A DNA stretch of 36,038 nucleotides from positions 1 to 36,038 of the forward strand of contig JALOQB010000017.1 in assembly GCA_025453595.1 (NCBI GenBank). The letters run 5' to 3'. Made by a program: the position numbers and the translations under genes. Numbering within the stretch: the first letter of the stretch is position 1; the number at the start of each line of letters is the position of its first letter. The DNA is from Polyangiaceae bacterium. Its GTDB lineage: Bacteria; Myxococcota_A; Polyangia; Polyangiales; Polyangiaceae. Shown piece after piece: positions 5,627-30,037 of this stretch. The notes below the pieces were generated by a model. That model was not told the DNA's origin and did no database searches. It saw only the letters and a list, made by a program, of their open reading frames with translations.

Positions 5627-7551
<1,925 letters not shown>

Positions 7552-7628
7552 GTTGCGTCGCAGCAAGAGGGTCGCAGGCGGCCCGACCTTAGCAGACTAC
7601 GCGGCGCCCGGGCCAGGGCCCTCCCGGC

Positions 7629-8498: not shown

Positions 8499-9071
8499 AT
8501 GACCATGACCCACCCTTCCCACCCGGCGGTGCTGCTGGCGGCAGACGCCGTGGGGGATGTGATCGAGTACTGGGGGTTCCGGAAGGCGCTGGGGCGCGTG
8601 TGGGCGGTGCTGTACCTGTGGGATGGTCCGCTGTCGGCGGGGGACATCGGGGAGCGGCTGCAGATGTCGGCGGGTGCGGTGAGCATGGCGCTGACGGAGC
8701 TGCAGCGGTGGGCGGTGGTGAAGCGGGTGTGGCTGCCCGGGGAGCGGCGCGAGTTCTTCGAGGCGGAGGTGGATCTCTGGAAGATGATCGCGAAGGTGAT
8801 CAGCGAGCGAGAGCGGTACCTGGCGCGGGGGGTGAGGGAGCGCCTGGAGCAGGCGAAGCGGATGGTGGAGGAGAGCGGAGGGGGCGTGAAGGGCCAGCGA
8901 GAGAAGCTGGAGAAGCTGGTGTCGGTGGCCCAGCTGGCGGAGCACGTGATCGAGGCGTTTATCCAGTCGCGGATGGCTGATTTTTCGACGTTCACCGGGG
9001 CCCTCAGCGGCGCTGGTGAGGGCTCTGCGAAGGCTCGGAAGGTGAGGTTAGAGACAGGGCGGAAGAGATGA
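8499..9071 (+). CDS. GbsR/MarR-type transcriptional regulator
   Basis: 190 residues. A winged helix-turn-helix is recognisable at about residues 38-85 (GPLSAGDIGERLQMSAGAVS then MALTELQRWAVVKRVW), followed by a helical dimerisation region rich in Glu/Arg/Lys. The N-terminal ADAVGDVIEYWGFRKALGRV is the usual lead-in of GbsR-type proteins, which repress or activate neighbouring operons in response to small ligands. It is the first gene of the long menaquinone operon and shares ATGA with the polyprenyl synthase gene, so it most likely regulates that operon and itself through the dyad upstream (inference). The ligand is unknown. Confidence 0.82.
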   Translation: MTMTHPSHPAVLLAADAVGDVIEYWGFRKALGRVWAVLYLWDGPLSAGDIGERLQMSAGAVSMALTELQRWAVVKRVWLPGERREFFEAEVDLWKMIAKVISERERYLARGVRERLEQAKRMVEESGGGVKGQREKLEKLVSVAQLAEHVIEAFIQSRMADFSTFTGALSGAGEGSAKARKVRLETGRKR

Positions 9072-10111: not shown

Positions 10112-10120
10112 GGTGCAATC

Positions 10121-11101: not shown

Positions 11102-12258
11102 CCACCTCGCGCATCAGCGGTTTTTACCTCCGCTCCGTTCGTGAGCGGCTCGACGATCTCGCCCGGGCGGGAGACCTCGACGCGGAGACCGTCGCCTTCT
11201 TCCGCCGCGGCGGCGGCCTGGAGCTGCCGATCGCCGACCGGATGAGCGAGAACGTCATCGCCACCCACGGCCTCCCCCTCTCGGTGGCCCTCAATTTCGT
11301 CCTCAACGGCCGCGATGTGCTGATCCCCATGGCCGTCGAGGAGCCCAGCGTGGTCGCCGCTGCCTCCAACGCGGCCCGCATGATCCGTGAATCGGGCGGG
11401 TTCCACGGCGAGGCAGACCCATCGATCATGACCGCCCAGGTCCAGTTCGATGACGTCCCCGACCCCGCCGAGGCCGCCGCCCGCGTGGTCGCCGAGCGAG
11501 CCCGCATCCTCGCCCTCGGTGACGCCTCGATCCCCAGGCTCATCGCCCGCGATGGCGGCTGCAGGGACCTGGAGGTCCGCGTCCTCGACCCCCAGGCCGG
11601 CGTCCTCGTCTGTGACCTCTTTGTCGACGTCAAGGACGCCATGGGCGCCAACATCGTCGACACCGTCGCCGAGGCCGTCGCCCCCACCCTGCTCTCCCTC
11701 GTGGGCGGCAAGATGGGCCTCCGTATCCTCAGCAACCTCCCCCTGCGCCGCATGAGCCGCGTCCGTTGCCGCGTCTCCGACGACGCCCTCGGCGGCCCCC
11801 AGGTGGCCGACGGGATCGCCCGGGCCAGCCGCTTCGCCGAGCTCGACCCCCTCCGCGCGGTCACCCACAACAAGGGCTTCATGAACGGGCTGGACGCCGC
11901 CGCCGTGGCCCTCGGCCAGGACTGGCGCTCCCTGGAAGCCGCCGCTCATGCCTACGCTTCCCTGGGGGGTAAGTATGCACCCATGAGCACCTGGCGCCGG
12001 GTCCCCGGAGGGCTGGAGGGTCAGGTGCAGCTTCCCCTGGCGGTGGGGGTGGTGGGCGGGGCGACGGGGGCGCACCCGGGGGTGCAAGCGGCCTTCAAGC
12101 TGCTGCGGGTGGCCACCGCGCAGGAGCTGGCCCTGGTGCTGGCGTCCGTGGGGCTTGCATCCAACCTGGCGGCGCTGCGTGCGCTGGCCACCGACGGTAT
12201 CCAGAAGGGCCATATGCGGTTGCATCAGCGGAAATTCACCACGCCGGAGGGCGCATGA
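11098..12258 (+). CDS. mvaA: Hydroxymethylglutaryl-CoA reductase, class II
   Basis: 386 residues; the ATG overlaps the DAHP synthase stop (ATGA). Class II signatures are all visible: MSENVIATHGLPL (about 49-61), VEEPSVVAAAS with the catalytic Glu (about 82), THNKGFMNGLDA (Lys), GQDWRSLEAAAHAYA (Asp), the GVVGGATGAHP nucleotide site and the late GHMRLH histidine. Class II enzymes interconvert HMG-CoA and mevalonate. Although the class is often called degradative, its position next to a polyprenyl synthase suggests the biosynthetic direction, feeding mevalonate-derived isoprenoids to the menaquinone tail (inference). No other mevalonate-pathway gene is in the window. Confidence 0.92.
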   Translation: MTTSRISGFYLRSVRERLDDLARAGDLDAETVAFFRRGGGLELPIADRMSENVIATHGLPLSVALNFVLNGRDVLIPMAVEEPSVVAAASNAARMIRESGGFHGEADPSIMTAQVQFDDVPDPAEAAARVVAERARILALGDASIPRLIARDGGCRDLEVRVLDPQAGVLVCDLFVDVKDAMGANIVDTVAEAVAPTLLSLVGGKMGLRILSNLPLRRMSRVRCRVSDDALGGPQVADGIARASRFAELDPLRAVTHNKGFMNGLDAAAVALGQDWRSLEAAAHAYASLGGKYAPMSTWRRVPGGLEGQVQLPLAVGVVGGATGAHPGVQAAFKLLRVATAQELALVLASVGLASNLAALRALATDGIQKGHMRLHQRKFTTPEGA

Positions 12259-12968
12259 CCTCTTCCCCTGTTCGCCCCGGCAGCGGGGCCATGTTCGACG
12301 CCATCGCGGGCCGCTACGACCTGCTCAACCGCATCATCTCGCTCGGGGTCGATCAGCCCTGGCGGCGGCGGCTCATCGCCTCGATCCAGCCGCGCCCCGG
12401 GCACCGGGTGCTGGATCTCGCCACCGGGACCGGCGACGTGGGGTTGATGCTGCTGGACCTGCACCCGGAGGTGAAGGTGGTCGGGCTCGACCCCTCCGCC
12501 GGTATGCTCGACGTGGCGCGGGGCAAGATCGGGAGAGGTCGGCTCGATCACCGCATGGAGCTGATCCTGGGGGAGGCCGAGCGGCTGCCCTTCGAGGACA
12601 GCTCCTTCGACGGGTGCATGATGGCGTTCGGCATACGCAACGTGGCGGATCGACCGGCGGCGCTCCGGGAGATGGCCCGGGTGGTGCGCCCCGGCGGGCG
12701 CGTCGCCATCCTCGAGCTCAGCGAGCCGCGCTCCGGTGTCCTGGGGCCCCTGGCCCGGTTCCATATTCACCGGGTCGTGCCCACGGTCGGGGCCCTGCTC
12801 TCCGGCGCTCGCGAGTACAGCTACCTGCAGTCTTCCATCGCCGCCTTCCCCCCGCCAGAGGTCTTCGCCGCCCAGATGCGAGAGGCAGGGCTCGATGTGC
12901 TCTCGGTGGTCCCGATGACCTTCGGGTCGGTCTGCCTCTACGTGGCGTCTCCAGCCCCGTCGGTGTGA
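12255..12968 (+). CDS. menG: Demethylmenaquinone methyltransferase
   Basis: 237 residues; ATGA overlap with the HMG-CoA reductase gene. UbiE/MenG hallmarks: MFDAIAGRYDLLNRIISLG at the N-terminus, the SAM-binding LDLATGTGDVGL, GLDPSAGMLDVAR, AERLPFEDSSFDG and FGIRNVADRPAALREMARVV, and the late YSYLQSSIAAFPP block. It methylates demethylmenaquinone with S-adenosylmethionine as the last step of menaquinone synthesis, at the cytoplasmic membrane face. No ubiquinone genes are nearby, so the menaquinone role is favoured over ubiquinone. Confidence 0.93.
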   Translation: MTSSPVRPGSGAMFDAIAGRYDLLNRIISLGVDQPWRRRLIASIQPRPGHRVLDLATGTGDVGLMLLDLHPEVKVVGLDPSAGMLDVARGKIGRGRLDHRMELILGEAERLPFEDSSFDGCMMAFGIRNVADRPAALREMARVVRPGGRVAILELSEPRSGVLGPLARFHIHRVVPTVGALLSGAREYSYLQSSIAAFPPPEVFAAQMREAGLDVLSVVPMTFGSVCLYVASPAPSV

Positions 12969-12972
12969 GCTC

Positions 12973-14268
12973 GTGGATGCAGACCTGGCCTCCCTGCTGA
13001 ACGCATCGCCCTCTGGCTCCCCGCGCTCCCTGGTGGTCCCGGCGCCCCTCGTCGAGCCCGAGCGCTTGCTGCGCCTCGACCTGGCCGGGGATCCGCTCTT
13101 CTGGGACGGATCCGCCTGGGGAGAGCATGCCATCGCCGCCCGCGGGTTCGCCGCGCGCTGGCCTCTCTCCCTCGGCGCCCCGGATCGGGAGATCCGCGAG
13201 GCCCTGGCTCGCCATGAGCTCCTCGGGGCCCCGGACGCCGGGGGGCCTCGCTGCTACGGGGGGTTCGCGTTCCACGATGTGCCCTCCCGGGGGGGCTGGG
13301 CAGCCTTCGGGCGCGGTGCCCTTGTGCTCCCTCGTCTTGGCTACGAACGCCACGGAGAGCGCGCCTGGTTGCGCCTCAACCTCGCCGCTGACGAGGCCCT
13401 GGCGGGCTGGATCCCGATGCTGCACCGGGTCCGGTGCCAGCTCGCCGAGGAGGCCCCCACGCCTCCGCCCCGGGCGCGCATCCTCGACGAGGCCGCCGCG
13501 GCGTACCAGGGGGTCGTCGCGTCCGCCGTGGCCGCCATCGAGCGCGGAGAATTCGTGAAGCTCGTGGCTGCACGTGCCATGCAGGTGGAGCTCCAGCACC
13601 CCGATCCCTGGGCCACCCTGGCCGCGCTCCGCGGCCCCAGCCTTGTCCGCTTTGCCCTGGGCCAGGGCCCCTCGATCTTTCTTGGAGCCACGCCGGAGCG
13701 CCTCCTCACCCTGGACGACGCTGGCGTTCGTACCGAGGCCCTCGCCGGATCCGTGGCCGCGGGCCCGGGGGCCGAGGGCTGGCTGATGGACTCGGCGAAA
13801 GATCGCCACGAGCACGAGGTGGTCGTCGAGACCATCGTGAACACCCTCCGCGCCCACCGCTGCACCGTGGAAGCCCCCGCCTCCCCCGCGGTCCGTCGCC
13901 TGCGCCACCTGCTGCACCTGGCCACCCCCATCCGTGCGCGCCCTCCCTCCGGCGCCTCCGCGCTGGCCCTCGCGGCGATCCTCCACCCGACCCCGGCGGT
14001 CTGCGGCCTCCCCCAGGGGCCCGCCGCCGCCTGGCTCCACGCCCATGAACAGCTGGAGCGCGGGTGGTACGCGGGCCCCTTCGGCTGGTTCGACGCCCTC
14101 GGCCGCGGCACCTTCGCCGTCGCCCTGCGCTCTGCACTGATCCATGAACGCTCGGCCCTCGTCTTCGCGGGGGCGGGCCTCGTCCGCGGTTCCACCCCCG
14201 ACGGGGAGCTCCGCGAGACCGCCCTCAAGGCTCGATCCATGCTCGATGCGCTCGGAGTTTCCCCATGA
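12973..14268 (+). CDS. menF: Isochorismate synthase
   Basis: 431 residues, starting with GTG four bases after menG. The C-terminal chorismate-binding domain shows AAIERGEFVKLVAARAM (the catalytic-lysine region), FLGATPERLLTL, EALAGSVAAGP, KDRHEHEVVVETI, LLHLATPIRARPP and GPFGWFDALGRGTFAVALRS. It converts chorismate to isochorismate, committing it to menaquinone. A salicylate or EntC-type role is possible from sequence alone, but the immediate overlap with menD fixes the assignment. The N-terminal about 170 residues are poorly conserved, as is normal for the family. Confidence 0.92.
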   Translation: MDADLASLLNASPSGSPRSLVVPAPLVEPERLLRLDLAGDPLFWDGSAWGEHAIAARGFAARWPLSLGAPDREIREALARHELLGAPDAGGPRCYGGFAFHDVPSRGGWAAFGRGALVLPRLGYERHGERAWLRLNLAADEALAGWIPMLHRVRCQLAEEAPTPPPRARILDEAAAAYQGVVASAVAAIERGEFVKLVAARAMQVELQHPDPWATLAALRGPSLVRFALGQGPSIFLGATPERLLTLDDAGVRTEALAGSVAAGPGAEGWLMDSAKDRHEHEVVVETIVNTLRAHRCTVEAPASPAVRRLRHLLHLATPIRARPPSGASALALAAILHPTPAVCGLPQGPAAAWLHAHEQLERGWYAGPFGWFDALGRGTFAVALRSALIHERSALVFAGAGLVRGSTPDGELRETALKARSMLDALGVSP

Positions 14269-16043
14269 GCAACAACCTCCACCTCGCCTGGTGTCGCCTC
14301 TTCGCCCGGGGCCTCGCCGGTAGCGGACTCCAGGACGTCGTGATCAGTCCTGGGTCACGTTCGACACCCATGGTCCTGGGGCTGGACGCGGAGCGTGCCC
14401 TCCGGAAGCATCTGGTGGTGGACGAGCGTTCCGCGGGTTTTTTTGCCCTCGGGCAGGCGCGCGCCACCGGCCGACCCACCGCCTTGCTCTGCACCTCCGG
14501 GACCGCCGCCGCCCACTATTTGCCGGCGGTCGCCGAGGCCTCCCTGGCCCGCGTCCCCCTCGTGCTGCTCTCCGCGGATCGCCCCTGGGAGGCCTACGAC
14601 TGCGGCGCCTCCCAGACCATGGACCAGGTGAAGCTCTTCGGGGATCAGGTGCGGCACTACGCCGAGCTGGGCTTGCCGGACGCCGCCGCGCTGCCTGCGG
14701 TGCAGCGGGTGGCAGCCCAGGCGGTGCTGCGATCGCGCTGGCCCGACCCTGGACCTGTTCACATCAACGCTCGCTTCCGCAAGCCCCTGGAGCCGGTCGA
14801 GGTGTCCGGGCCCGAGCCCCACGCGGCCCTCGTGGAGCGGCTGCTGGAGGCCGGCCCTCCGGTCGCTTTTCCGCCGCGCGAACAGGTGGACCCGGATGCC
14901 ATCGATTTCCTGGTGCGAGCCCTCCGCGGCTGCTCCCGGGGGCTGATCGTGGCAGGGCCTTCCCTGGGGTCCTCCCTGCCGCTGCTCCGCGAGGTGCTGC
15001 CTCGTCTGTGCGCTGCCCTCGGCTTCCCCTTGCTCGCGGAGACCACCAGCGGTCTCCGGGCCCTGGCCAGCGTGATGCCGGTGGTGACCTCCTTCGATGT
15101 CCTCTTTCGCTCCCCGGCCTTCCTGGCCCGGCATGCGCCCGATTTCATCCTGGAGATCGGCATGCCTCCGGTCTCCACGGCCTATGCTGCCTGGCTCGCC
15201 TCCCAGCCCCAGCTCGCCCGCGTCGTGATCGCGCCGCGAGGCTGGAACGATCCCCACGGCACCGCCAGCGCCCTGCTCCTCGGGGACCCGGCGGCCTACC
15301 TCCACGAGCTCTCGCTCCGGGCAAACCCCGAGGCCCTCGACCCCGCCTGGGCCCCTACCTGGCACCGCGCGGCGGCCATCGTGGAGGGCCTCGTCAAGGC
15401 GCAGACCGAGGCGAGCCCCCTGTGCGAGGGGGCCGTCGCCCGCTCCGTAGCCCAGGCGCTCGGCCCGGGGGTCACCCTGCTGCTGGGCAACAGCGGTCCG
15501 GTCCGGGACATCGATTTGTATGGAACCTCTGTATATCAGATCGACGGAGATCTGGCGCCCCATGTGCTGCATCAGCGGGGGGCCGCGGGGATAGACGGGC
15601 TGATCGCCGGCGGGGCCGGGGCCGCCTCGGTGAGCGGCGGGAGGCCCGTGGTGGTCTACCTGGGGGACATCTCGTTGCAGCACGATCTGGGGAGCTTGCA
15701 CCTGGCGGCGCGCGCGTCCGAGCCCCTGGTGATCGTGGTGACCAACAACGACGGGGGGCGGATCTTCGAGCAGCTGCCGCTCGCCCGACGGAGCGAGGTG
15801 AAGGGGGCCTTCGAGCGCTACTTCATCACCCCGCACGGCGGGAATTTCGAGGGCCCTGCGCGAGCCGCGGGGCTCTGGTACCGCGAGGTCACCGAGCGCG
15901 GGGCGCTGCAGGAGGCGCTGGCGCAGGCGGCGGCGCGCCCCGCGGCCTCGCTCATCGAGGCGCGGGTGCCGCCGGAGCAGGGGGCCCAGGAGCGCACCAG
16001 GCTCTGGCGCCAGGCCGCCGAGCTGCTGGGGGATCTGGGCTGA
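14265..16043 (+). CDS. menD: SEPHCHC synthase (2-succinyl-5-enolpyruvyl-6-hydroxy-3-cyclohexene-1-carboxylate synthase)
   Basis: 592 residues, slightly longer than the usual 550-580. The N-terminal ThDP-enzyme half shows DVVISPGSRSTPM, LVVDERSAGFFALGQARAT with the ThDP-activating Glu and TSGTAAAHYLPAVAEASL; the SADRPWE...GASQTMDQVKLFG block is MenD-specific. The C-terminal ThDP/Mg site is GDISLQHDLGSLHL...VTNNDGGRIFEQLP. It joins isochorismate with the succinic semialdehyde unit from 2-oxoglutarate. It overlaps menF by ATGA and menH by a single base. Confidence 0.95.
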   Translation: MSNNLHLAWCRLFARGLAGSGLQDVVISPGSRSTPMVLGLDAERALRKHLVVDERSAGFFALGQARATGRPTALLCTSGTAAAHYLPAVAEASLARVPLVLLSADRPWEAYDCGASQTMDQVKLFGDQVRHYAELGLPDAAALPAVQRVAAQAVLRSRWPDPGPVHINARFRKPLEPVEVSGPEPHAALVERLLEAGPPVAFPPREQVDPDAIDFLVRALRGCSRGLIVAGPSLGSSLPLLREVLPRLCAALGFPLLAETTSGLRALASVMPVVTSFDVLFRSPAFLARHAPDFILEIGMPPVSTAYAAWLASQPQLARVVIAPRGWNDPHGTASALLLGDPAAYLHELSLRANPEALDPAWAPTWHRAAAIVEGLVKAQTEASPLCEGAVARSVAQALGPGVTLLLGNSGPVRDIDLYGTSVYQIDGDLAPHVLHQRGAAGIDGLIAGGAGAASVSGGRPVVVYLGDISLQHDLGSLHLAARASEPLVIVVTNNDGGRIFEQLPLARRSEVKGAFERYFITPHGGNFEGPARAAGLWYREVTERGALQEALAQAAARPAASLIEARVPPEQGAQERTRLWRQAAELLGDLG

Positions 16044-16801
16044 TGACGCCGCCGCTTGTCACCCTCCACGGCTTCCTCGGGGCTCCTTCCCTGTGGGCCG
16101 CGTGCCTGACAGGGGTCGCCTTGCCGGTGCCGGTCGAGCACCGCTGGCTCCCGGGGCACGGGCCTGACCCTCAGGGGCCTCGCTCCCTGTCTTTTCGTCA
16201 GCTCGTGGACGAGCTCGCCGCCAGCTGCCCTCCCGGCTCCTTGCTCCTCGGGTACTCGCTGGGCGCACGGCTGGCCCTGGCGGCGCTGGCCTGGCACCCG
16301 GGGCGCATCGCGGGGGCCATCGCGGTGGGGGGCCACCCGGGCCTGGAGTCCCCGACCGAGCGCGACGAGCGTGCTCGCTGGGACGAGGAACAGGCCGCAC
16401 AGATCGAGCGCGAGGGGCTCCGACCGTTCCTCGAACGCTGGGAGTCGCTCCCTCTCTTCGCCACCCAGCGGCGACTCCCGGCTTCTGCCCTCGACGCACA
16501 GCGCGCCGCCCGCCTCGCCCACCGGCCTGCCGCGGTCGCCTGGGCCATGCGTGCCCTCGGCCTGGGCAGCATGCCCCCCTGCGCCGGGGAGCTCGCCGCG
16601 GTCCGGGATCGGGTCACCCTCGTGACCGGCCGGCTTGACCAGAAGTTCCATACAGTTGCGGCGGAGCTATCGAGGAGGTTGCTTGTGAAGCACGTGATCG
16701 TGGAGGGGGCCGGGCACAACGTGCCGCTGGAGGAGCCGGGGACCATGGGGGAAGTGGTGCGCCTGGAGGTCGAGCGGCTGCGGCAGGGGAGGGGGGCATG
16801 A
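16043..16801 (+). CDS. menH: SHCHC synthase (MenH-type alpha/beta hydrolase)
   Basis: About 252 residues from the ATG sharing one base with the menD stop; the same frame is open far upstream inside menD, which is only a shadow. Motifs: [21 protein letters not shown], nucleophile elbow GYSLGARL (Ser72), an Asp in GRLDQKF and the late histidine in [11 protein letters not shown]. The LPGHG and GYSLGAR forms are typical of MenH. It eliminates pyruvate from SEPHCHC to give SHCHC. The operon position directly between menD and menA supports this over a generic esterase. Confidence 0.9.
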
Positions 16802-18342
16802 GCGGGGTCGTGGCTCCGGGGTCGGCGCGGGCCTGGCTGCTGGCGTCGAGGCCAGCCACGCTGCTGGTCGGTCTGGTCCCGGTGCTGGTCGGGGCGGCCC
16901 TGGCCACCGCGGCCGGTGGGTTCCGGGCGGGGCCGACCCTGGCGGCGCTCTGGGGGTCCGTATTTTTGCAGATCGGATCGAACTTCGCGAACGACGTGTT
17001 TGACTACGAGAAGGGCGCGGACACGGAGGCGCGCCTCGGGCCGGTGCGGGCGACCCAGGCGGGCCTGCTGACGCCACGCCAGGTGAAGGGGGGCATGGTG
17101 TTCAGCTTCGTGCTCGCCTTTCTCGCCGGGATCTACCTCACCGCCGTCGCGGGGTGGCCCATCGTGGTGATCGGTCTCTGCTCCATCGCCGCCGCCATCG
17201 CCTACACCGGGGGGCCTTACCCGCTCGGTTACAACGGCCTGGGGGAGGTCTTCGTGTTCCTGTTCTTCGGCCTCGTCGCCGTCCCCGGTACGGTTTTTGT
17301 GCAGATGCACACGGTGCTCCCGGCGGCCTGGCTCGCCGCGCTGCCGGTGGGGCTCCTGGCGTCGGCGGTGCTCGTGGTCAACAACGTGCGGGACCACGAG
17401 ACCGATCGCGTCGCCGGCAAGCGCACCCTCGTCGTCCGCTTCGGGCGCCCCTTCGGCGTGGGCATGTACCTCGCGTTCCTGCTGCTCTCGTACCTGACTC
17501 CGGTCGCGCTCCTGGCCCTGGGCCTGGCGACCCCCTGGGCCCTCGCCCCGCTGCTGACCGCCCCCCTCGGCTTCCGGCTCTGGCGTACCCTGCGGGTCGA
17601 GCGCGAGGGGGCTGTGCTCAACCGGTGCCTCGCCGGCACGGCCCGCCTTCTCTTCCTCTTTGGCCTCCTCTTCTCGCTGGGCCTCTCGCAGCGCTTAGCT
17701 CACGCATCATGCAGATCCTCTCCGCACAGCTACGACCGATCGGAGGCGCCGTCTCTCGCGGGGTCCGGAACGCACGCAAGCGCTGGGCCGAGCGCGAGGG
17801 GATCTTGCTCTTGCTGGAGGCTCCAGGCGGGCTCCGGGGCGTCGGAGAGGCCTCCCCGTTGCCAGGCTACTCCGCCGAGGATCTCCCCGCGGTCCTCGAC
17901 GAGCTTCGCTCCTTCTTGCCCTCGGTGCGGTACCTCCCGCCGACCCCCGGCGAGATCGAGGCCCTCTGCGCCCCCCTCCGCTCCCCCTCCGCCCGCTTCG
18001 CCCTGGAGACCGCGCTCCTCGGCCTCCTCGCCTGCTCCCTCCGCACCTCGCTCCACGGGCTGTTTCAGCCCGCCGCGGGCCCGCTCCCTCGCAGCGGGTT
18101 GCTCCAGGAAACGCACCTCGATGCGCTCCTCGAAGAGGCCACGATCAAGGTGGAACGCGGCCTCTGCTGCCTCAAGCTCAAGATCGGCGCATCCTCCCTC
18201 GATCGGGACATCGAGCTCCTCCACGCCTTGCACCAGGCCCTGGGCCCGGCCATCACCTTTCGCCTCGACGCCAACGGCACCCTCTCGCCGCAGCAGGCCG
18301 CCTCGTTGCTCCAGCGCATCGCGGCCGTCCCCGTCGATCTGA
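16798..18342 (+). CDS. menA: DHNA polyprenyltransferase MenA with an anomalous run-on 3' end
   Basis: The first about 300 codons are a clear Men[19 protein letters not shown], the first Asp motif [46 protein letters not shown] and the second motif [17 protein letters not shown], with about eight hydrophobic membrane helices. It attaches the polyprenyl chain to DHNA in the cytoplasmic membrane. The family normally ends near residue 300 (about 17700 here), but no in-frame stop occurs there. The frame continues about 214 more codons through the menC gene with the Ser/Pro/Arg-rich composition of an out-of-frame reading. A TAG sits at 17696-17698 in the next frame, so a single-base indel would end the protein at the usual place. 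The true 3' end is therefore uncertain. Confidence 0.82.
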
Positions 18343-18767
18343 TCGAGGAGCCCGTCGCCCCGTCCGACTGGGGGCTCCTCGCGCCCCCCGGCTCCTCCCG
18401 GGCCCCCTGGGCCGCGGACGAGTCCCTCCTTTCCCTGGCCGACGCTCACCTCGCTCGCCCGGGCCTCGACGCGTTCGTCCTCAAGCCCGCGATCCTCGGC
18501 TTCTTCGGCGCCCTTCGCCTCGCTACCCGCGCCATCGAGCACCGCAAGCGCATCGTCATCACCCACCTCTTCGACGGCCCCATCGCCCTCGCCGCCGCCT
18601 GCGAGCTCGCCCTCTCTCTGCCCGCCGAGCACCTGCTCCCTTGCGGCCTCGACCTCCACGACGCTCTCCACGCCTTCCCGCGGATCTTCCTCCCTCAGCT
18701 CGCGGTCCCCGGCTTCCTCGTCCCCCTCCTTGAGCCTGGCCTGGGCCTCCGGGGGGTCCACCGTTGA
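17709..18767 (+). CDS. menC: o-succinylbenzoate synthase
   Basis: About 352 residues from the ATG giving [13 protein letters not shown]; the same frame is open upstream within menA but carries no homology there. Enolase-superfamily features in order: [12 protein letters not shown], the KxK catalytic lysines in CLKLKIG, metal ligands in [17 protein letters not shown] and AADESLL, then VLKPAILGF and the late [13 protein letters not shown]. It dehydrates SHCHC to o-succinylbenzoate. It is overlapped on its 5' 630 bases by the run-on menA frame and overlaps menE by GTTGA at its stop. Confidence 0.92.
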
Positions 18768-20140
18768 CCTCGTTCTCCTGGCTCCAGGCCTCTCGCGAGG
18801 CACCCCTCCTCGAAGCACTCCGCTTCGAGGATACTGTATGGAACTTCCGTGATCTTGGCGACGAGGTGGATCGGACCTCCCGGCGCCTGGCGGCCCTCGG
18901 CGCCGGGCCTGGCGCCGCGGTGGCGCTCCGGGCCCAGAACGGCCTCGATGCCCTGCGGATCGCCGCGGCGACGATCGAGCTCCAGGCCCCGCTGGTGCTG
19001 CTTCACCCGAGGCTTACGCAGGCCGAGGAGGGGGCCTTGCTGGCCCAGGCGCAGCCCCGCGTGCTGGCGCTGGAGGGCGAGCCCCGGCAGACCGAGCGCT
19101 TCGAGCCGTTGCCTGCGGAGGTGGGGGTCGTGATGTTCACCTCGGGCACCAGCGGCCGACCTCGGGGGGCGATGCTCCCGTGGGGCGCGCTCTCGGCGGC
19201 GGTCGAGGCGAGCGCGGCCCTGCTGCCGGTGGCCCCGGGCGACCGGTGGCTGCTCTGCCTGCCGCTCTGCCACATCGGGGGGCTTTCCATCCTGCTGCGG
19301 TGCCTGCGGGGGCGGGGGTCGGTGGTGCTCGCGCCGCGCTTCCGCGCCGCGGAGGTGCTGGCCTTGATCGAGCGCCACCGGCCGACGCTGCTCTCCGTGG
19401 TGCCCACGATGCTCCATGATCTCCTGGAGGTGGACGAGCGCAACCTCCTCGCCACCCTGCGGGCGGTGCTGGTGGGGGGGGCCGCGGCCCCGGCGCCGCT
19501 GCTGGAGCGCAGCGCCCGGCGCGGCGTCCTGGCACTCACCACCTACGGCCTCACGGAGGCTTGCTCCCAGGTCACCACCCAGCGCCCGCGCGATGCCTCG
19601 ACGAGCGAGCCCGGGGTAGGTCGCCCGCTCCCGGGGGTTGCGCTGCGGCTGGTGAGCGAGGAGGGGGCCGAGGTCAGGCCGGGAGCGATCGGCCGCATCC
19701 AGATCCAGGGGCCCACGCTGATGCGAGGGTACCTGGGAGAATCGCCCATTTCAGGCTGGTTTGACACCGGAGATCTGGGCTCCTTTGATCTTGCCGGGCA
19801 CCTCCATGTCCACGCCCGCCGCTCCGATCTCATCGTCACGGGGGGCGAGAACGTGTACCCGGCCGAGGTCGAGGCGCAGCTCCTGGTCGGCGGGGGCGTG
19901 CTCGCGGCGATGGTCTTTGGTGTGCCTGATCCGCGGTGGGGACAGCTCGTGGCCGCCGCGATCGTGCCCGCCCCGGGGTTCAACCCGGAAGCCTGGCGCG
20001 CCGCGGTGCTCGCGGCGATGGCCCCGCACAAGCGACCCCGGTTGTTCTGCGTGACCGATGCCATCCCCCTCGGCCCCACCGGGAAACCTCTGCGAAGGCT
20101 CGCCCTCGAGCTCTTCCAGAAACGACTCTCACTTCTTTGA
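18764..20140 (+). CDS. menE: o-succinylbenzoate-CoA ligase
   Basis: 458 residues, starting with TTG inside the menC stop region. ANL-superfamily adenylation motifs: FTSGTSGRPRGAMLPW (P-loop), LPLCHIGGLSIL, TTYGLTEACSQVTT, GWFDTGDLG, RRSDLIVTGGENVYPAEVE and the terminal catalytic lysine in PLGPTGKPLRRL. It activates o-succinylbenzoate with ATP and CoA. It is the last gene of the operon; the next step (MenB) is not encoded here. Its 3' end overlaps the convergent gene by 12 bases. Confidence 0.93.
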   Translation: MTSFSWLQASREAPLLEALRFEDTVWNFRDLGDEVDRTSRRLAALGAGPGAAVALRAQNGLDALRIAAATIELQAPLVLLHPRLTQAEEGALLAQAQPRVLALEGEPRQTERFEPLPAEVGVVMFTSGTSGRPRGAMLPWGALSAAVEASAALLPVAPGDRWLLCLPLCHIGGLSILLRCLRGRGSVVLAPRFRAAEVLALIERHRPTLLSVVPTMLHDLLEVDERNLLATLRAVLVGGAAAPAPLLERSARRGVLALTTYGLTEACSQVTTQRPRDASTSEPGVGRPLPGVALRLVSEEGAEVRPGAIGRIQIQGPTLMRGYLGESPISGWFDTGDLGSFDLAGHLHVHARRSDLIVTGGENVYPAEVEAQLLVGGGVLAAMVFGVPDPRWGQLVAAAIVPAPGFNPEAWRAAVLAAMAPHKRPRLFCVTDAIPLGPTGKPLRRLALELFQKRLSLL

Positions 20141-21510: not shown

Positions 21511-21762
21511 TCAGCTCCGGGGAGTCACCAGCTCGACGGCGCGCCGGGTCAGCTCCATCGACAGCTTGCGCCACTGGGCGTTCAGCTCGACCCCGTAGCT
21601 CATCGACGCCCCGGTCAGCCGGGCCCACTCTTCCAGCAGGCGCCTGGCCTGCTCGGCCCGCTGCTGCTCGAGCCGGGCGTACTCGCCCAACATGGTGTCG
21701 ACCCGGTGGCCTTGATCGGTCAACCAGCGGCCCAGAAGATGTTGCACTTGCGAGATGGCCAT
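21511..21762 (-). CDS. Small phasin-like protein
   Basis: 83 residues with GAGGAG about 8 bases before the ATG. Predicted to be almost wholly helical with an amphipathic pattern (QVQHLLGRWLTDQGHRVDTM, ARLEQQRAEQARRLLEEWAR). It has no signal peptide and no recognisable catalytic motif. It lies directly downstream of phaR, behind a perfect TGTTGC-N3-GCAACA dyad. Phasins are small amphipathic helical proteins that coat PHA granules and are repressed by PhaR, so a phasin-like role is inferred from context and helix character rather than from a sequence match. The minus-strand promoter may be the TTGACG at about 21839-21844. Confidence 0.6.
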   Translation of the reverse strand: MAISQVQHLLGRWLTDQGHRVDTMLGEYARLEQQRAEQARRLLEEWARLTGASMSYGVELNAQWRKLSMELTRRAVELVTPRS

Positions 21763-21851: not shown

Positions 21852-21868
21852 TTGTTGCAACGCAACAA
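21852..21868. promoter_or_regulatory. PhaR-type operator A (phasin gene)
   Basis: Perfect inverted repeat TTGTTGC-AAC-GCAACAA, with 7-base arms and a 3-base spacer. It lies 90 bases upstream of the phasin-like start and 4 bases beyond the phaR stop. It is the best-matching of four sites in the window sharing TGTTGC-N3-GCAACA. Confidence 0.7.
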
Positions 21869-21872
21869 GGTC

Positions 21873-22436
21873 TCAGGGTCGCTTGCGCCGCGGGGGACGC
21901 TGGTGCCTGGGCTCCTCCAGCTCGCTGCGTAGCTCGGCGATCTGGCGCCGCAGCTCGGCGAGCTCGGCGCTGGTGTCGCCGGCCTCGGGGGGCGGAGGCA
22001 CCGGGGGCCCGGGGAAGGCGGGGGCCGGGGTCCAGGGCGGGTGCAGCAGCAGCCGGGCCAGGGCCGAGGTGGCCTGGAACGGGAGGGCGGCGAAGGGGTT
22101 GAGGGGCGAGAGGGTCTGGGCCCCGCGCCGGGTCTGCTGGTAGGCTTCCAGCGCCAGCCCCAGGGCTCGCGCAAGAAATTCGGCCAGCGCGTCGTCGTTG
22201 CGCATCCGGATGATCTGCTGCAGCAGCGAGACCGGCAGCAGCCTCGACGCCCCGTTCTTCTCGATGATCTGCAGCAGCGTCACCTGGGTCAGGTCGTCGT
22301 TGGTCTGGGCGTCCACCACCCGCACCTCGGCCCCCCCGAGGATCCGCTCTTCCAGCTGCTCCAGCGTGATGTACTGGCTCTCGGAGGTGTCATAAAGCCT
22401 CCGGTTCGAGTATTTCTTTACGAGCAGCGATGCCAT
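21873..22436 (-). CDS. phaR: Polyhydroxyalkanoate synthesis repressor PhaR
   Basis: About 187 residues from the ATG giving MASLLVKKYSNRRLYDTSES; the frame is open upstream into the intergenic region without homology. The N-terminal about 64 residues are the PHB/PHA accumulation-regulator DNA-binding domain (KKYSNRRLYDT, YITLEQLEERI, VVDAQTNDDLTQVTLLQII). The adjacent LLPVSLLQQIIRMRNDDALAEF is the granule-sensing PHB_acc region. The C-terminus is a Pro-rich linker and a short Glu/Arg/Gln coiled coil. PhaR binds DNA and PHA: as polymer accumulates, it leaves its operators and phasin is expressed. Dyads lie in front of this gene and of three neighbouring units. Confidence 0.93.
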   Translation of the reverse strand: MASLLVKKYSNRRLYDTSESQYITLEQLEERILGGAEVRVVDAQTNDDLTQVTLLQIIEKNGASRLLPVSLLQQIIRMRNDDALAEFLARALGLALEAYQQTRRGAQTLSPLNPFAALPFQATSALARLLLHPPWTPAPAFPGPPVPPPPEAGDTSAELAELRRQIAELRSELEEPRHQRPPRRKRP

Positions 22437-22484
22437 GACGGTGCGACCGCACTCTAGCCCGGATCCTGGATCCCGGGGCGCATA

Positions 22485-22499
22485 TGTTGCGGCGCAAAA
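22485..22499. promoter_or_regulatory. PhaR-type operator B (phaR upstream region)
   Basis: TGTTGC-GGC-GCAAAA, five of six bases matching in the second arm, 49 bases upstream of the phaR ATG. It fits autoregulation, and together with operator C it sits in the divergent phaR/lipoprotein intergenic region. Confidence 0.55.
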
Positions 22500-22504
22500 A
22501 CAGG

Positions 22505-22543
22505 TTGACTCCTGGAGGGTGTTTTTTATGTTGTGTTGCAACA
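22505..22543 (+). promoter_or_regulatory. Sigma-70-like promoter with PhaR-type operator C
   Basis: TTGACT (22505-22510), 16 bases, then TATGTT (22527-22532). The operator TGTTGT-GTT-GCAACA (22529-22543) overlaps the -10 box and probable start point; its core TGTTGCAACA is also a perfect palindrome. The envelope cassette starts at 22582. A repressor bound here would block polymerase directly. Confidence 0.6.
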
Positions 22544-22581
22544 AAACCGGTCCCAACCTCACCTCCAGCCGTGGGTTCCTC

Positions 22582-23589
22582 ATGCGCGCTTTGCTCTGCT
22601 CCTTGATGCTGATCCTGGGCGCCTGCTCGTCGGCGGGTGGCTCCTCTCCCGAGGGGTCGTGTACCTCGGGCTCCGAGTGCCCCTCGGGGGTATGCGGCGG
22701 CGATGGGGTGTGCGTGGCGGGGGGGGCTGGCGGCGAGGCCGGGTCCTCGGGCGCCGCGGGCCAGGCAGGGCAGGGGGGTGAGGCCGGGGCCGGCGGGGCG
22801 GGGGCCGGCGGCGAGGGCGGGGCGGGGGCGGCGGGGGGCGGCGCCGGAGGTTCCGGACAGGCAGGGGCGGGGGCCGGCGGTGGGTCGCAGGTGTGCGCGC
22901 CGAACAACGACGGGACGATCACCCGGGCCGAGACGCCGCTGATCACCGGCGCCAAGGCGACCTACAAGCTTGCCCAGAAGGTCCCGGTCGACACGGCAGG
23001 CAAGGGGGAGGGGGCCAGCCGCGAGTGGGATTTCTCCAAGTCCTTGCCCGGAGAATACTCCTCGCTGGTCGAGACCCAGCCCCTCGAAGGCAAGTGGTTC
23101 GCGTCCAAGTTCCCCGGGGCCTCCTACGCGTTGAGGCTCCGCGACGGCGAAGAGCTGCTGGGCGTCTTCGAGGCCAGCGAAGAGGCCCTGCTGCTCCGCG
23201 GCGTGGTCTCTCCCACCGACGGGTTGACCCGCACCGAGCTCACCTACAACCCGCCGGTCAAGGTGCTCACCTTCCCGCTCAAGGTCGGGGCGAGCTGGTC
23301 GACCCAGACCACCATCACGGGCGTCGCCAGCGGCGTGTTCAGCACCTACTACGAGAAGTACGAATCCAAGGTCGACGCCGCGGGGCTGGTCAAGGTCCCC
23401 TTCGGTGATTTCCCGGCGATGCGCGTCAACCTGCTCCTCACCCGCACCGTCGGCTTGCTGGTCACCATCTCCCGCACCTTCGTCTTCACCTCCGAGTGCT
23501 ACGGGACCGTGGCCCGGGTCGTCTCCCAGGACAACGAGACCGGCAACGAGTTCTCCACCGCCGCCGAGATCACGAGGCTCTCTCCTTGA
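22582..23589 (+). CDS. Lipoprotein with Gly/Ala-rich linker, paralogue of the gene at 26066
   Basis: About 335 residues from the ATG giving MRALLCSLMLILGACSS; the frame is open upstream without homology. A lipobox (LGAC, Cys15) is followed by a Cys-rich cluster (about 27-44) as in many myxobacterial lipoproteins, a Gly/Ala/Glu linker (about 46-102) and a folded C-terminal domain of about 230 residues. I do not recognise the domain. It shares clear blocks with the lipoprotein at 26066: PNNDGTI/PNLDGQI, QPLEGKWFAS.FP, and the end SEC(Y/F)G.VAR...EFSTAAEI.RL. It is the first gene of a four-gene unit with one-base or four-base overlaps, behind operator C, and is probably surface- or periplasm-exposed. 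Confidence 0.85.
   Translation: MRALLCSLMLILGACSSAGGSSPEGSCTSGSECPSGVCGGDGVCVAGGAGGEAGSSGAAGQAGQGGEAGAGGAGAGGEGGAGAAGGGAGGSGQAGAGAGGGSQVCAPNNDGTITRAETPLITGAKATYKLAQKVPVDTAGKGEGASREWDFSKSLPGEYSSLVETQPLEGKWFASKFPGASYALRLRDGEELLGVFEASEEALLLRGVVSPTDGLTRTELTYNPPVKVLTFPLKVGASWSTQTTITGVASGVFSTYYEKYESKVDAAGLVKVPFGDFPAMRVNLLLTRTVGLLVTISRTFVFTSECYGTVARVVSQDNETGNEFSTAAEITRLSP
22717..22887 (+). repeat. Gly/Ala-rich low-complexity coding repeat
   Basis: Encodes residues about 46-102 of the lipoprotein, built from irregular GGxGGxAG units, giving an extended flexible tether between the lipid anchor and the folded domain. Such tracts are frequent in myxobacterial surface lipoproteins and can vary in length between strains. 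Confidence 0.8.
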
Positions 23590-24500
23590 TGCCGTGGCCC
23601 CGCTCTCTCCTTGCCCTCATGGCCCTCGGCGTCGGCTCCCAGGGCTGCGCCGGCTCCTTTCATCGAGGGCCCATGCCCGGCGAACCCAGGGACGCCACCT
23701 TCCTCGAGATCGAGGGCACCCGCGTCCGCTACACCGACCGCGGCGAGGGCCCCCCGGTGGTGCTCATCCACGGTTTTGCCTCCTCCCTCGAGACCTGGCT
23801 CGCCGTGGCTCCGGCCCTCGAGAAACGCCACCGGGTCCTCTCGTTGGACCTCAAAGGTTTTGGCTGGACCGATCGCCCCGAGGGTGACTACTCGCCCGCC
23901 GCCCAGGCCCGGCTGGTCTGGGGGCTCCTCGACGCTCGGGGGGTCGAGCAGGCCGCCGTGGTGGCCCACTCCTGGGGCTCCTCCGTCGCCCTCTCCATGG
24001 CCCTGTCCCAGCCCCGCCGGGTCAGCCGCATCGCCCTCTACGACGCCTGGGTCTACGAGGAGCAGCTGCCCTCGTTCTTCCTGTGGTCCCGCTCCCCCGG
24101 CATCGGAGAGACGCTCTTCGGTCTCTTCTACAAGGAGCGACCGGACGAGAAGATGGCCCGCGCCTTCTACGATCAGCGCTTTGTCACCCACGCGCTGGTC
24201 TCCGACGTCGAGCGGGCCCTCGACCGCCCGGGCACCGTGGCCGCGGCCCTGGCCGCCGTCCGGGGGCAGCGCTTCGCCGAGATCCAGGATCGCTACCGCA
24301 CCATCACCCAGCCCGCCTTGCTCCTCTGGGGCCGCGAGGACGAGGTGACCACGCTCCCCTTCGGCGAGCGCCTCGCCCGCGATCTGCCCGACGCGCGGCT
24401 GGTCGTGTACCCCCGCTGCGGCCACTTCCCGATGATCGAGGCGCCGTACGTCTCCACCGCCGAGCTGGCCTCCTTCCTCGCCGCCGGAGGCACCCCGTGA
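23589..24500 (+). CDS. Lipoprotein alpha/beta hydrolase
   Basis: About 303 residues; the ATG shares one base with the preceding stop. An N-terminal signal with Cys in GSQGCAGS suggests lipidation, although the lipobox is weak (SQGC). Hydrolase motifs: VVLIHGFASSLETW, LDLKGFGWTDRP, nucleophile elbow AHSWGSSVA, acid in WGREDEVTT and histidine in RCGHFPMIE. This is an esterase/lipase-type fold placed outside the cytoplasm. It lies in the cassette downstream of operator C, between two paralogous lipoproteins and next to a beta-barrel. The substrate is unknown; a lipid, ester or polyester is conceivable from the PHA context. Confidence 0.85.
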   Translation: MPWPRSLLALMALGVGSQGCAGSFHRGPMPGEPRDATFLEIEGTRVRYTDRGEGPPVVLIHGFASSLETWLAVAPALEKRHRVLSLDLKGFGWTDRPEGDYSPAAQARLVWGLLDARGVEQAAVVAHSWGSSVALSMALSQPRRVSRIALYDAWVYEEQLPSFFLWSRSPGIGETLFGLFYKERPDEKMARAFYDQRFVTHALVSDVERALDRPGTVAAALAAVRGQRFAEIQDRYRTITQPALLLWGREDEVTTLPFGERLARDLPDARLVVYPRCGHFPMIEAPYVSTAELASFLAAGGTP

Positions 24501-26062
24501 AGCGGGCCGCCCTCGCGCTGGCCTCGGCCCTCCTGCTCGCGCCCCAGACGGCCCTCGCCACCGGCTTCACCGAGATCGGCCAGGACATCCGCCCCCGCAC
24601 CGACGCCTCCTTCAAGCTCGAAGGTTACTTCCGTACCCGCGGAGAATCCCTCTACAACCTCGACCTCGATCGCGGGCTGACCCCCTCGGGCCAGCCCCTC
24701 TTTCCGGTGCCCTCCGATGGGGGCCAGTCCCTCTACGGAGGCGACCTGCGGCTGCGCACCGATCTCTCGATCTATGCCCCGGGCGGCACCGTCGCCGTCA
24801 AGGTCCGCATCGATACCCTCGATAACCTGGCCGCCGGCAGCAGCGCCGTGGGCAACTATGCGGCCTCCACCACCCAGGTTTCTCCCGACGGGGCCATGCG
24901 CGTCAAGCGCGCCTACGGCACCGTGCTCACCCCCATCGGCGTCCTCTCCGCCGGGCGCATGGGCAACCACTGGGGCCTCGGCATGCTGGCCAACGGCGGT
25001 GACTGCGCCGACTGCGACAGCGGCGACGCCGCCGACCGCGTCGCCTTCCTCACGCCGCTGCTGGGCCACGTCTGGGCCCTCGCCTACGACATCTCCGCCA
25101 CCGGCCCCGTGACCGCCCGCAAGGACGGCGTCCGGCAGCTCGATTTCGAGCCCACCGACAACGTGCAGACGGTCACCTTCGCGTTCCTCAACTTCCGGGA
25201 CGAGGGGGCCCTGGCGCGGCGCCGCAAGGCAGGCCTCGGCACCGCCGAGTATGGAGCTTACCTATCCCACCGGTGGCAGAAGAACGACGTCCCTTCGAGC
25301 TACCTGCCCACCACCCAGCCGGTCCCCTACTCGGCGGCGCAGGTGGTGCGGCGCGGCTACACGGCGACGGCGATCGACGGGTGGCTGAAGCTGACCTGGC
25401 CCTCGTTCCGCCTCGAGCTGGAGGGGGCGCTGCTCCAGGCGCAGATCGAGCAGGCCTCGCTGCTGCCCGGCGTCGAGCTGAAGAAGCCGGTGAAGTCGAG
25501 GCAGCTCGGCTTTGCGCTGGAGACCGAGCTGGGGTCGCCGGAGGGGCCCGGCGGAGGGGGCCTGGACGCCGGCTACGCCAGCGGGGATCCGGCCCCTGGC
25601 TTCGGGGCCTTCCCGCTGCCCAACGGCACGGCCCCGGCCCCCGGTGAGCTGGACGGGCCCCAGGCCAACGTGCCCCGCGACAACCGGGTCGATAACTTCC
25701 GTTTCAGCCCTGATTACCGCATCGATCGGGTGCTCTTCCGCGAGATCATCGGCACGGTGACCGACGCGCTGTACCTGCGCCCCCACGCCCGCGTCGTGCT
25801 CTTCCGGAACGCCGCGGGTCAGCTCGCGGCCTCCCTCGCGGTCATCAATTCGTGGGCGGTGCAGGCCGCCTCGACCCCGGGGAGGCAGAGCTACCTGGGC
25901 CTCGAGCTCGACCCCACCCTCGTCTACCAGAGCCACGATGGCGTTGCGCTGGCTCTCGATCACGGTGTCTTCTTCCCTGGCGCGGCCTTCGATAACCCCG
26001 AGTCCCGCCTTTCCGCCCGCACCGCCCAGGTGATCCGGGCCCGCCTGTTCCTGAGGTTCTGA
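24497..26062 (+). CDS. Outer-membrane beta-barrel protein (TIGR04551-like)
   Basis: About 521 residues from a GTG whose GTGA overlaps the hydrolase stop; the frame upstream is a shadow. It has a cleavable signal peptide (MKRAALALASALLLAPQTAL) ending ALA. Alternating hydrophobic/polar strands run throughout, for example FKLEGYFRTRGESLYNLDL and LRLRTDLSIYAPG, and the last residue is Phe (ARLFLRF), as in proteins inserted by the Bam machinery. It resembles, from memory, the myxobacterial outer-membrane family TIGR04551; its function is unknown to me. The cassette position suggests it forms a pore or anchor for the two lipoproteins and the hydrolase. Confidence 0.8.
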   Translation: MKRAALALASALLLAPQTALATGFTEIGQDIRPRTDASFKLEGYFRTRGESLYNLDLDRGLTPSGQPLFPVPSDGGQSLYGGDLRLRTDLSIYAPGGTVAVKVRIDTLDNLAAGSSAVGNYAASTTQVSPDGAMRVKRAYGTVLTPIGVLSAGRMGNHWGLGMLANGGDCADCDSGDAADRVAFLTPLLGHVWALAYDISATGPVTARKDGVRQLDFEPTDNVQTVTFAFLNFRDEGALARRRKAGLGTAEYGAYLSHRWQKNDVPSSYLPTTQPVPYSAAQVVRRGYTATAIDGWLKLTWPSFRLELEGALLQAQIEQASLLPGVELKKPVKSRQLGFALETELGSPEGPGGGGLDAGYASGDPAPGFGAFPLPNGTAPAPGELDGPQANVPRDNRVDNFRFSPDYRIDRVLFREIIGTVTDALYLRPHARVVLFRNAAGQLAASLAVINSWAVQAASTPGRQSYLGLELDPTLVYQSHDGVALALDHGVFFPGAAFDNPESRLSARTAQVIRARLFLRF

Positions 26063-26065
26063 GCG

Positions 26066-26959
26066 ATGCGATGGTCCTGGCTGTTGCCCCTTTTGTGCTT
26101 CGGTTGCAGCGAGAACGAGACCCCGGTGCGGGACAAACCCCCGTACCAGGCCCCCGAACTCGAGCCCCTCACCTGCGTCCCGAACCTCGACGGTCAGATC
26201 GAGGCGAGCGAGCTCAGCGCGGCCTTTGACGTCCCCGTCTCGTACCTGGCCAGCCCCGCCGGCGAGCAGCGGGCCGTCGCCCTCGACGGCGCTCCCAACC
26301 CGGATGGCTCCTTTGTTGTCGCCTGGGACGCCGATTTTGCCACCGATCAGGTCGCCCAGATCTCGGCGCAACCCCTCGAAGGCAAGTGGTTTGCCTCCTC
26401 CTTCCCCCAGGGCCAGTTCGTCACCCCCCTCGACCTCGGCGGCACCACCCTCTCCGTCTACCAGCGCACCGAGAGCGCCCTGCTGCTGTGGGGCCTGGCG
26501 AGCGCCGAGGAGAACCCCGCCGCCGGCAAGACCTTGATGGTCTACTCGACCCCCATCACCCTCTACCAGTTCCCCTTCGCGCCCGGGTCCACCTGGGTCT
26601 CGACCGGTGAGATCCAGAACGGCGTCATCCGCGGCCTCGCTTACGCCGGTAAAGATACCTACGAGACCAGGGTCGATGGCGTCGGCGAGCTTCGCCTCCC
26701 GGACCTCACCTTCAAGCAGGTCCTCCGCGTTCGCACCCGCGTCGTCCTCCAGCCGGCGGTCGGCGCCACCGTCATCACCCGCCAGACCTCCTTCCTCTCC
26801 GAATGCTTTGGCGAGGTGGCCCGCGCCACCAGCCTCCAGGGCGAAGAGAACGAGGCCTTCTCCACCGCCGCCGAGATCCGTCGGCTGGGTCTGTTATGTT
26901 GCACCGCACCAAGGGATATCGCTCATGATGCTCTGGGATCTCTGGAAAAAGGGCTTTGA
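26066..26959 (+). CDS. Lipoprotein, paralogue of the gene at 22582
   Basis: 297 residues; lipobox CFGC (Cys14) in MRWSWLLPLLCFGCSEN. The domain matches that of the lipoprotein at 22582 block by block (see there), without the Gly/Ala linker. I do not recognise a named family. The shared domain ends at about residue 275 (EIRRLGL); the last 20 residues have no counterpart in the paralogue and are encoded by DNA that also holds operator D, the phaE ribosome binding site and the first 35 bases of phaE. It begins 3 bases after the barrel gene, so it closes the cassette. Confidence 0.85.
   Translation: MRWSWLLPLLCFGCSENETPVRDKPPYQAPELEPLTCVPNLDGQIEASELSAAFDVPVSYLASPAGEQRAVALDGAPNPDGSFVVAWDADFATDQVAQISAQPLEGKWFASSFPQGQFVTPLDLGGTTLSVYQRTESALLLWGLASAEENPAAGKTLMVYSTPITLYQFPFAPGSTWVSTGEIQNGVIRGLAYAGKDTYETRVDGVGELRLPDLTFKQVLRVRTRVVLQPAVGATVITRQTSFLSECFGEVARATSLQGEENEAFSTAAEIRRLGLLCCTAPRDIAHDALGSLEKGL
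26897..26911. promoter_or_regulatory. PhaR-type operator D (phaE-fadD-phaC unit)
   Basis: TGTTGC-ACC-GCACCA, five of six bases matching in the second arm, 13 bases before the phaE ATG and inside the 3' end of the preceding lipoprotein gene. A TATGTT (26895-26900) overlaps its left arm exactly as at operator C. No good -35 is visible, so a separate promoter here is tentative. Confidence 0.5.
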
Positions 26960-27272: not shown

Positions 27273-28999
<1,727 letters not shown>

Positions 29000-29003
<4 letters not shown>

Positions 29004-30037
29004 CCCAGTCGATCGCGAGCAACGACAGCAAGCGCATCTGGAACCTCCTCGGGCTCCCTTTTCGCAAGAAGCCTCTGGTCGGTGTATCCCCCTCCGATGT
29101 GGTCCACCACGAGAACAAGTGGCGCCTGATCCGTTACCGCAGCCGCCCCGAGGGCCTCGCCTTCCGCACCCCGGTGCTCCTCGTCCCGTCCCTCATCAAC
29201 CGCCATTACGTGCTCGATCTGATGCCCGGAAAGAGCCTCGCCGAGTACCTGGTGGCCCAGGGGCACGACGTGTTCGTCCTCGACTGGGGCACCCCCGAGA
29301 ACGAGGATCGCTACCTCACGTTTGACGATATCTGCGATCGTTACCTCGGGCGCGCGCTCCGGCTCACCTCCGCTTACTCCGAGCGGAACCAGGCCCACGT
29401 CCTCGGCTACTGCATGGGCGGCATCCTCACCGCCATCCACACCGCCGCTCGACCCGGGCGCGTCGCCTCCCTCGTGCAGCTCGCGGCCCCCGTGCGCTTC
29501 CACGACGACGGGCTGCTCTCTGCCTGGATGCGCACTCCCTCCTTCGACGTGGACACCATGATCGCCGCCTACGGCAACGTGCCCTGGCAGCTCATGCAGT
29601 CTGCCTTCCACCTGCTGCGCCCCACGCTCTCCCTCTCCAAGGCCGTCGGTCTCCTCGATCGCGCCTGGAACGACGAGTTCCTCGATGGCTTTTTTGCCCT
29701 CGAAACCTGGGGCAATGACAACGTCTCCCTGCCGGGCGAGTTCTTCCGCCGCTTTGCCCGCATGTACCGCGACGACGACCTGGTGCGCAACGCCATGACC
29801 CTCGGCGGCGACCCGGTGCACCTGGCGGATATCCGCTGCCCCTTCCTCGCCGTCACCTTCGAGCACGACAACATCGTCCCCTGGCGCAGCGCCGCCGAGG
29901 TGATGACCCTCATCTCCTCCGAGGACAAGCAGCACATCCACCTCCCCGGGGGCCACGTCGGTGCTGTCGTCTCCAAGTCTGCTGCCCGCGGGCTCTGGCC
30001 CCAGATCAGCGGCTTCTGGGCCCAGCGCGACCGCTGA
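29000..30037 (+). CDS. phaC: Class III poly(3-hydroxyalkanoate) synthase
   Basis: About 345 residues; ATGA overlap with the acyl-CoA synthetase. The length is that of class III/IV synthases (about 355), not class I/II (about 590). The lipase-like box is GYCMGG with the nucleophile Cys138; the partners are Asp290 (EHDNIVPW) and His319 (GGHVGAVV). Also typical are [27 protein letters not shown] and [13 protein letters not shown]. It polymerises 3-hydroxyacyl-CoA into PHA at the granule surface. Class III enzymes need a PhaE partner, for which the small protein three genes earlier is the candidate. Confidence 0.93.

Follow-up and report, generated by a model that had tools for sequence, protein, structure and literature searches.

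The window analysed here, a stretch of 36,038 nucleotides from a Polyangiaceae bacterium, holds a phaR-type regulator gene, a phasin-like gene and a PHA synthase operon, and short spaced dyads lie before them. The question that this locus raises is which protein reads these dyads, and to what effect. Very probably, they are operators of the adjacent regulator (i.e., a PhaR of the type-1 group of PHB_acc_N proteins), which would repress its targets until PHA forms. This reading draws on the sequence and positional conservation of the sites, their co-occurrence with only one of two PhaR paralogues and the identity of the linked genes; it is well supported for three of the sites (O1 to O3) and plausible for the fourth (O4). 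The features concerned are listed in Table 1.

Table 1. Features of the window discussed in the text, in order of position
Feature	Position	Strand	Remarks
Fifth motif match	7551..7565	.	Start codon of ABC-F gene
Phasin-like small protein, 83 aa	21511..21762	-	Homologues beside phaR and second phaC in relatives
O1 operator	21853..21867	.	Perfect dyad TTGTTGCAACGCAACAA, upstream of phasin-like gene
phaR, type-1 PHB_acc_N regulator, 187 aa	21873..22436	-	PF07879 84.7 bits (cut-off 25)
O2 operator	22485..22499	.	One mismatch; divergent phaR/LP1 spacer
Sigma-70-like cassette promoter	22505..22532	+	TTGACT-N16-TATGTT, flanked by O2 and O3
O3 operator	22529..22543	.	One mismatch; overlaps LP1 (envelope cassette) -10 box
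LP1, predicted lipoprotein, first cassette gene	22582..23589	+	Lipobox-like Cys15 invariant
ABH, alpha/beta hydrolase, lipoprotein-like N-terminus	23589..24500	+	PF00561 110 bits
OMP, TIGR04551 family	24497..26062	+	TIGR04551 307.8 bits (cut-off 300)
LP2, second predicted lipoprotein	26066..26959	+	Frame extends into phaE
O4 operator candidate	26897..26911	.	One mismatch; directly before phaE, within 3' end of LP2 frame
phaE-like, 108 aa	26925..27251	+	PF09712 25.8 bits (cut-off 25.7)
fadD-like acyl-CoA synthetase	27273..29003	+	PF00501 226.7 bits
phaC-like, class III type PHA synthase	29000..30037	+	PF07167 35.7 bits over cut-off

The dyads and the motif behind them

An earlier note on this DNA had reported four TGTTGC-N3-GCAACA dyads with at most one mismatch each, and all four were indeed present, the one at 21853 being perfect and the other three carrying a single mismatch. 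The three-base length of the spacer held as well, but the spacer is not a free N3, since it reads R-N-Y in all four cases. Across the whole 7.65 Mb genome, the perfect dyad occurs only twice and there are 32 matches with up to one mismatch, six of which fall inside the 36 kb window (binomial P ~9e-9, post hoc) and four inside the 5.06 kb named in that note (binomial P ~7e-9, post hoc). When up to three mismatches were allowed, the window yielded 22 matches versus 7.5 expected in shuffles, a count that none of 100 shuffles reached. The TGC-RNY-GCA core is exact in O1, O2 and O4, the mismatch in O3 puts TGT in place of the usually invariant TGC, and all four sites have a T at -7 and an A at +7 from the centre.

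A de novo Gibbs sampler, run on 200-bp upstream regions from 25 related phaR genes (window and congener excluded), returned the motif ttTGtTGCGcCGCAaCAaa, in which positions ±2-4 and ±7 are the most strongly conserved and ±1 is weaker, in agreement with the positions reported for R. eutropha PhaR. Over all 27 type-1 genes, its log-likelihood ratio amounted to 13.9 nats per sequence (vs. ~6 for shuffled sequences), and cross-validation with a train/test split gave P = 1e-7. With a held-out motif (i.e., learned from relatives, with the window left out), the window's top five matches were the four dyads and a site at 7551 (O1 26.8, O2 25.3, O4 25.0, 7551 21.8 and O3 21.5 bits), separated by a gap of 12 bits from the next one at 9.2 bits. 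As judged from these sequences, the actual motif reads TGC-RNY-GCA flanked by T/A at ±7, i.e., the published PhaR consensus of alpha- and beta-proteobacteria. In keeping with the earlier statement that PhaR binds TGC-rich dyads, the window motif agrees with PhaR sites mapped elsewhere by footprinting or EMSA (PMC12849132, PMC6201568, PMC12542648). More specifically, the R. eutropha site is YTKNTGCRNYGCANMAR, with conserved "positions 1-4 and 7" (PMC12849132), footprinted Bradyrhizobium sites share a TGCRNYGCASMA core, TGCRNYGCA (PMC6201568), S. meliloti sites identified by EMSA read YGCRNYGCR (PMC12542648), and the R. sphaeroides site is CTGCNNNGCAG (as cited in PMC12542648). In the literature on PhaR in Myxococcota, PHA genes are reported, and no PhaR site was found there.

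The 7551 site, which was not in the earlier note, is a fifth and equally good match. It was at first read as a fifth member of the regulon, a reading that was dropped because the site is not conserved, being absent from the congener (G001, whose ABC-F protein is 84% identical) and from 16 other relatives. The match is probably due to chance or specific to this species.

Among related loci, sites lie upstream of phaR in 24 of 26, of LP1 in 13 of 20 and of the phasin-like gene in five of six, compared to 0/19 for ABH, 2/19 for OMP, 1/19 for LP2, 1/19 for FadD and 0/20 for PhaC within the operon, and to 4 of 3019 background windows; the phaR and LP1 counts partly reuse regions on which the motif was trained, and those for the window, the mid-operon genes and the unused genomes do not. 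The congener in the search set also carries the locus (as MAG SKYG56), and its phaR/LP1 spacer has diverged from that of the window except for two dyads, O2 and O3, which stand out as a footprint. The dyad reported at 26897 before phaE-fadD-phaC is present too, but its conservation is not, as a site of this type occurs in only 4 of 18 loci (window included) and was not found at the corresponding place in the congener (the other species of the genus) or in most relatives. One of the four reported sites is probably a local addition, and O4 is the least certain of them. Half-sites of this kind are short, and an isolated match can lack conservation, as at 7551, but the shuffle, reversed-pattern, background-window and cross-validation controls all argue against chance or a compositional artefact, an explanation that is already refuted for O1 to O3 and negligible overall.

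Two PHB_acc_N paralogues and their sites

The window PhaR carries the N-terminal PHB_acc_N DNA-binding domain (PF07879, above cut-off). Against TIGR01848 it scores 87.3 bits, under the cut-off of 109.45, and it is therefore called PhaR-type rather than a certified PhaR equivalog. The C-terminal PHB_acc domain was undetected in the window protein, and matches to it at E <= 1 were obtained for 16 of the 18 aligned proteins (best 6e-6). The window genome and many of its relatives encode two members of the PHB_acc_N family, which were sorted by sequence into type 1 (KKY.NRR) and type 2 (KRY[SA]NRK); the second protein of the window genome (C474) is of type 2.

A site with up to two mismatches is found at 20 of 27 type-1 phaR loci and at none of 43 type-2 loci (Fisher 5e-12). 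At the genome level, genomes with a type-1 phaR contain 164 matches to TGTTGCRNYGCANMA vs. 49 to a reversed control, and those without it contain 36 vs. 57, with the type-1 set having been assigned from fetched loci, so that a few genomes may be misplaced. These counts bear on which protein reads the dyads. Since the link between regulator and site is drawn from co-occurrence, an unlinked regulator other than PhaR, co-evolving with the PHA genes, could in principle be responsible; this is very unlikely, as the sites track type-1 phaR over the 27 loci, are missing at type-2 loci and have the same design as PhaR sites mapped elsewhere. Even less probable is that the type-2 protein C474 is their main reader, which would be in line with its belonging to the same DNA-binding family and the same genome, but is at odds with the lack of sites at type-2 loci and of any motif excess in type-2-only genomes or those with neither type. 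The adjacent type-1 PhaR is the preferred candidate.

Upstream of type-2 phaR, a palindrome CTTGACGC...GCGTCAAG was weighed as a possible second operator but not retained, its left arm resembling a -35 box. A recurrent CTTGACGC...GCG in this position (e.g., L066, L122, L159) is perhaps such a box, or perhaps a second type of operator.

Promoters and the direction of control

The earlier note had found TATGTTG at three of the sites and proposed a common -10 geometry; the heptamers are there, but a properly spaced -35 (TTGACT, 16 nt) accompanies only the one at 22529. It had likewise assigned the dyads at 22485 and 22529 to phaR and the cassette, respectively; the dyads themselves stand, but both flank a single envelope-cassette promoter, with O2 upstream of its -35 (its centre 35 nt ahead of the -10 box of LP1) and O3 over its -10. 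This promoter fits 9 of 12 consensus positions, with 0.1 such promoters expected in shuffles. O1 is situated just upstream of the phasin promoter with its -35-like TTGACG, in a register that recurs in relatives, and no recognisable -35 was found at O4. Overall, 28 of 141 sites have a sigma-70-like promoter nearby (vs. 0.4% background), and two main registers emerge, with the dyad centre either 37-41 nt before the -10 or over it. Most phasin-type dyads adopt the former, just upstream of the -35, and a distal KASIII promoter follows the overlapping register in the window species and its congener alike. For phaR itself, a weak candidate -10 (TAGAGT, minus strand, 22456-22451) was noted by eye, ~36 nt from the centre of O2.

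These registers bear on a variant of the PhaR reading that differs only in the direction of control, i.e., that PhaR binds the sites and activates from upstream positions, or both activates and represses. R. eutropha PhaR activates phaP3 (PMC12849132), dual action has been reported for phaP1 and phaP3 of that species, and the phasin-type dyads mostly occupy the 37-41 nt offset. Nevertheless, the repressed R. eutropha phaP1 likewise has its site directly upstream of the -35 (PMC12849132), and O3 covers the -10, a placement suited to a repressor, so that we regard this variant as unlikely. Under the favoured repressor model, and by analogy with studied PhaR proteins, PhaR dimers would occupy the TGC-RNY-GCA palindromes when PHA is lacking, thereby repressing the phasin-like gene, the operon in which the envelope cassette is followed by phaE-fadD-phaC, and perhaps also phaR itself. 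Once PHA forms, PhaR would be drawn onto the polymer and transcription would rise. PhaR binding, the direction in which it acts and its response to the polymer are inferred, and most of the arrangement looks like one switch.

The envelope cassette and the wider regulon

The product of the gene at 21511-21762 matched no phasin family model (Pfam/NCBIfam) and is called phasin-like because of its position beside phaR and phaC homologues. The same databases gave no match for LP1, which is paralogous to LP2 (~33% identity). In both lipoproteins there is a C.PN.DG.I...E motif reminiscent of half an EF-hand loop. At 26890-26959, the LP2 frame of the window reads through the O4 dyad and overlaps phaE by ~35 bp, and the LP2 frame of the congener ends ahead of phaE. 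The OMP probably resides in the outer membrane, and we know of no report that ties its family to PHA. The phaE-like protein is just above the Pfam cut-off, with a match covering its C-terminal part only, and the phaC-like protein scores 261.5 bits against TIGR01836, under the cut-off of 365.3. Further upstream in the window, men-type genes at 9068-20140 look, by eye, like a menaquinone biosynthesis cluster.

The order LP1-ABH-OMP-LP2-PhaE-FadD-PhaC accompanies type-1 phaR at ~19 loci, some of which are truncated by contig ends or rearranged. In one MAG (L163 6417-8981, minus strand), hydrolase and OMP are fused into a single 854-aa frame via a Pro/Gly-rich linker, which suggests that the two work together. 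Structure models were unusable (mean pLDDT of 26 for OMP and 45 for LP2) and a fold search with LP2 gave nothing significant; with only three and seven eligible sequences, this says nothing about the fold. A sequence search of solved structures revealed no OMP relative, and only weak, short matches for LP1 and LP2.

The regulon appears to include this conserved lipoprotein-hydrolase-outer-membrane-protein cassette, and while the system is otherwise of a known kind, the cassette as a PhaR target is the part for which we found no description. The cassette may serve ester uptake feeding storage. More specifically, granule sensing by PhaR might also control a conserved envelope machine (the two lipoproteins, the hydrolase and the OMP) that would hydrolyse external esters or PHA oligomers, import them and pass them on via FadD to the co-transcribed synthase, an idea that we put forward tentatively and consider rather doubtful. 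If true, storage would open its own supply line.

The earlier note had spoken of a local regulon, which turned out to be too narrow, since the same dyad precedes distal PHA-related genes across the order. It had also named a motif that is frequent genome-wide without enrichment near PHA genes as an outcome that would speak against it, and the opposite was found: the exact RNY dyad is infrequent, with 32 sites over 59 genomes, and concentrated at PHA genes; by our own count, 21 of these sites lie at type-1 phaR loci and 5-6 more at other PHA genes. Exact sites stand before a PHB depolymerase (TIGR01849 539.6 bits), a hydrolase together with 3-hydroxybutyrate dehydrogenase (TIGR01963 322.3 bits), acetate-transporter-like genes (PF01184; one member above cut-off), and phasin-phaC and KASIII-like synthase operons. 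The second perfect site of the window genome (C34:10210) and a site in the congener lie before the same KASIII gene. Genomes outside motif building carried the site at three transporter-like loci and two KASIII loci (one adjoining a transporter), as well as at hydrolase-dehydrogenase, phasin-phaC and phaR loci; another ~10 loci had an exact site and no evident PHA link. One genome of the order (G078, L219-L222) contains 23 exact dyads, six of them within 18 kb around phaR, apparently an expanded set.

If our reading holds, the PhaR operator code, mapped so far in alpha- and beta-proteobacteria (in the literature cited above), would extend to Myxococcota with its specificity almost unchanged, and two PHB_acc_N paralogues could be told apart by their sites. 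The envelope cassette, which is conserved and unnamed and shares an operon with a PHA synthase in many genera, would obtain a first testable function class, and the depolymerase, 3-hydroxybutyrate dehydrogenase, acetate transporter and KASIII genes are predicted as further targets.

In comparison with known systems, the phaP1 and phaP3 operators of R. eutropha H16 share the TGC-RNY-GCA core with T/A at ±7 (YTKNTGCRNYGCANMAR), a phasin target, and the placement of sites immediately before the -35 and near the transcription start. Unlike in that species, the myxobacterial targets include an operon for a class III type synthase as well as the envelope cassette, the regulator has a PHB_acc_N paralogue, and the phylum is Myxococcota. 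Bradyrhizobium diazoefficiens PhaR likewise has a TGCRNYGCASMA core, two sites around the phaP1 -35 and depolymerase targets; its regulon is broad by transcriptomics, whereas the one described here is predicted from sequence. The Sinorhizobium meliloti PhaR (AniA) regulon resembles the myxobacterial one in the YGCRNYGCR core with AT-rich outer arms, in having phasins and depolymerase as targets and in paired sites flanking the -35. In S. meliloti, however, phaR lies beside phbAB and PhaR binds weakly to the promoter of its own gene, whereas here no site is better conserved than the dyad upstream of phaR.
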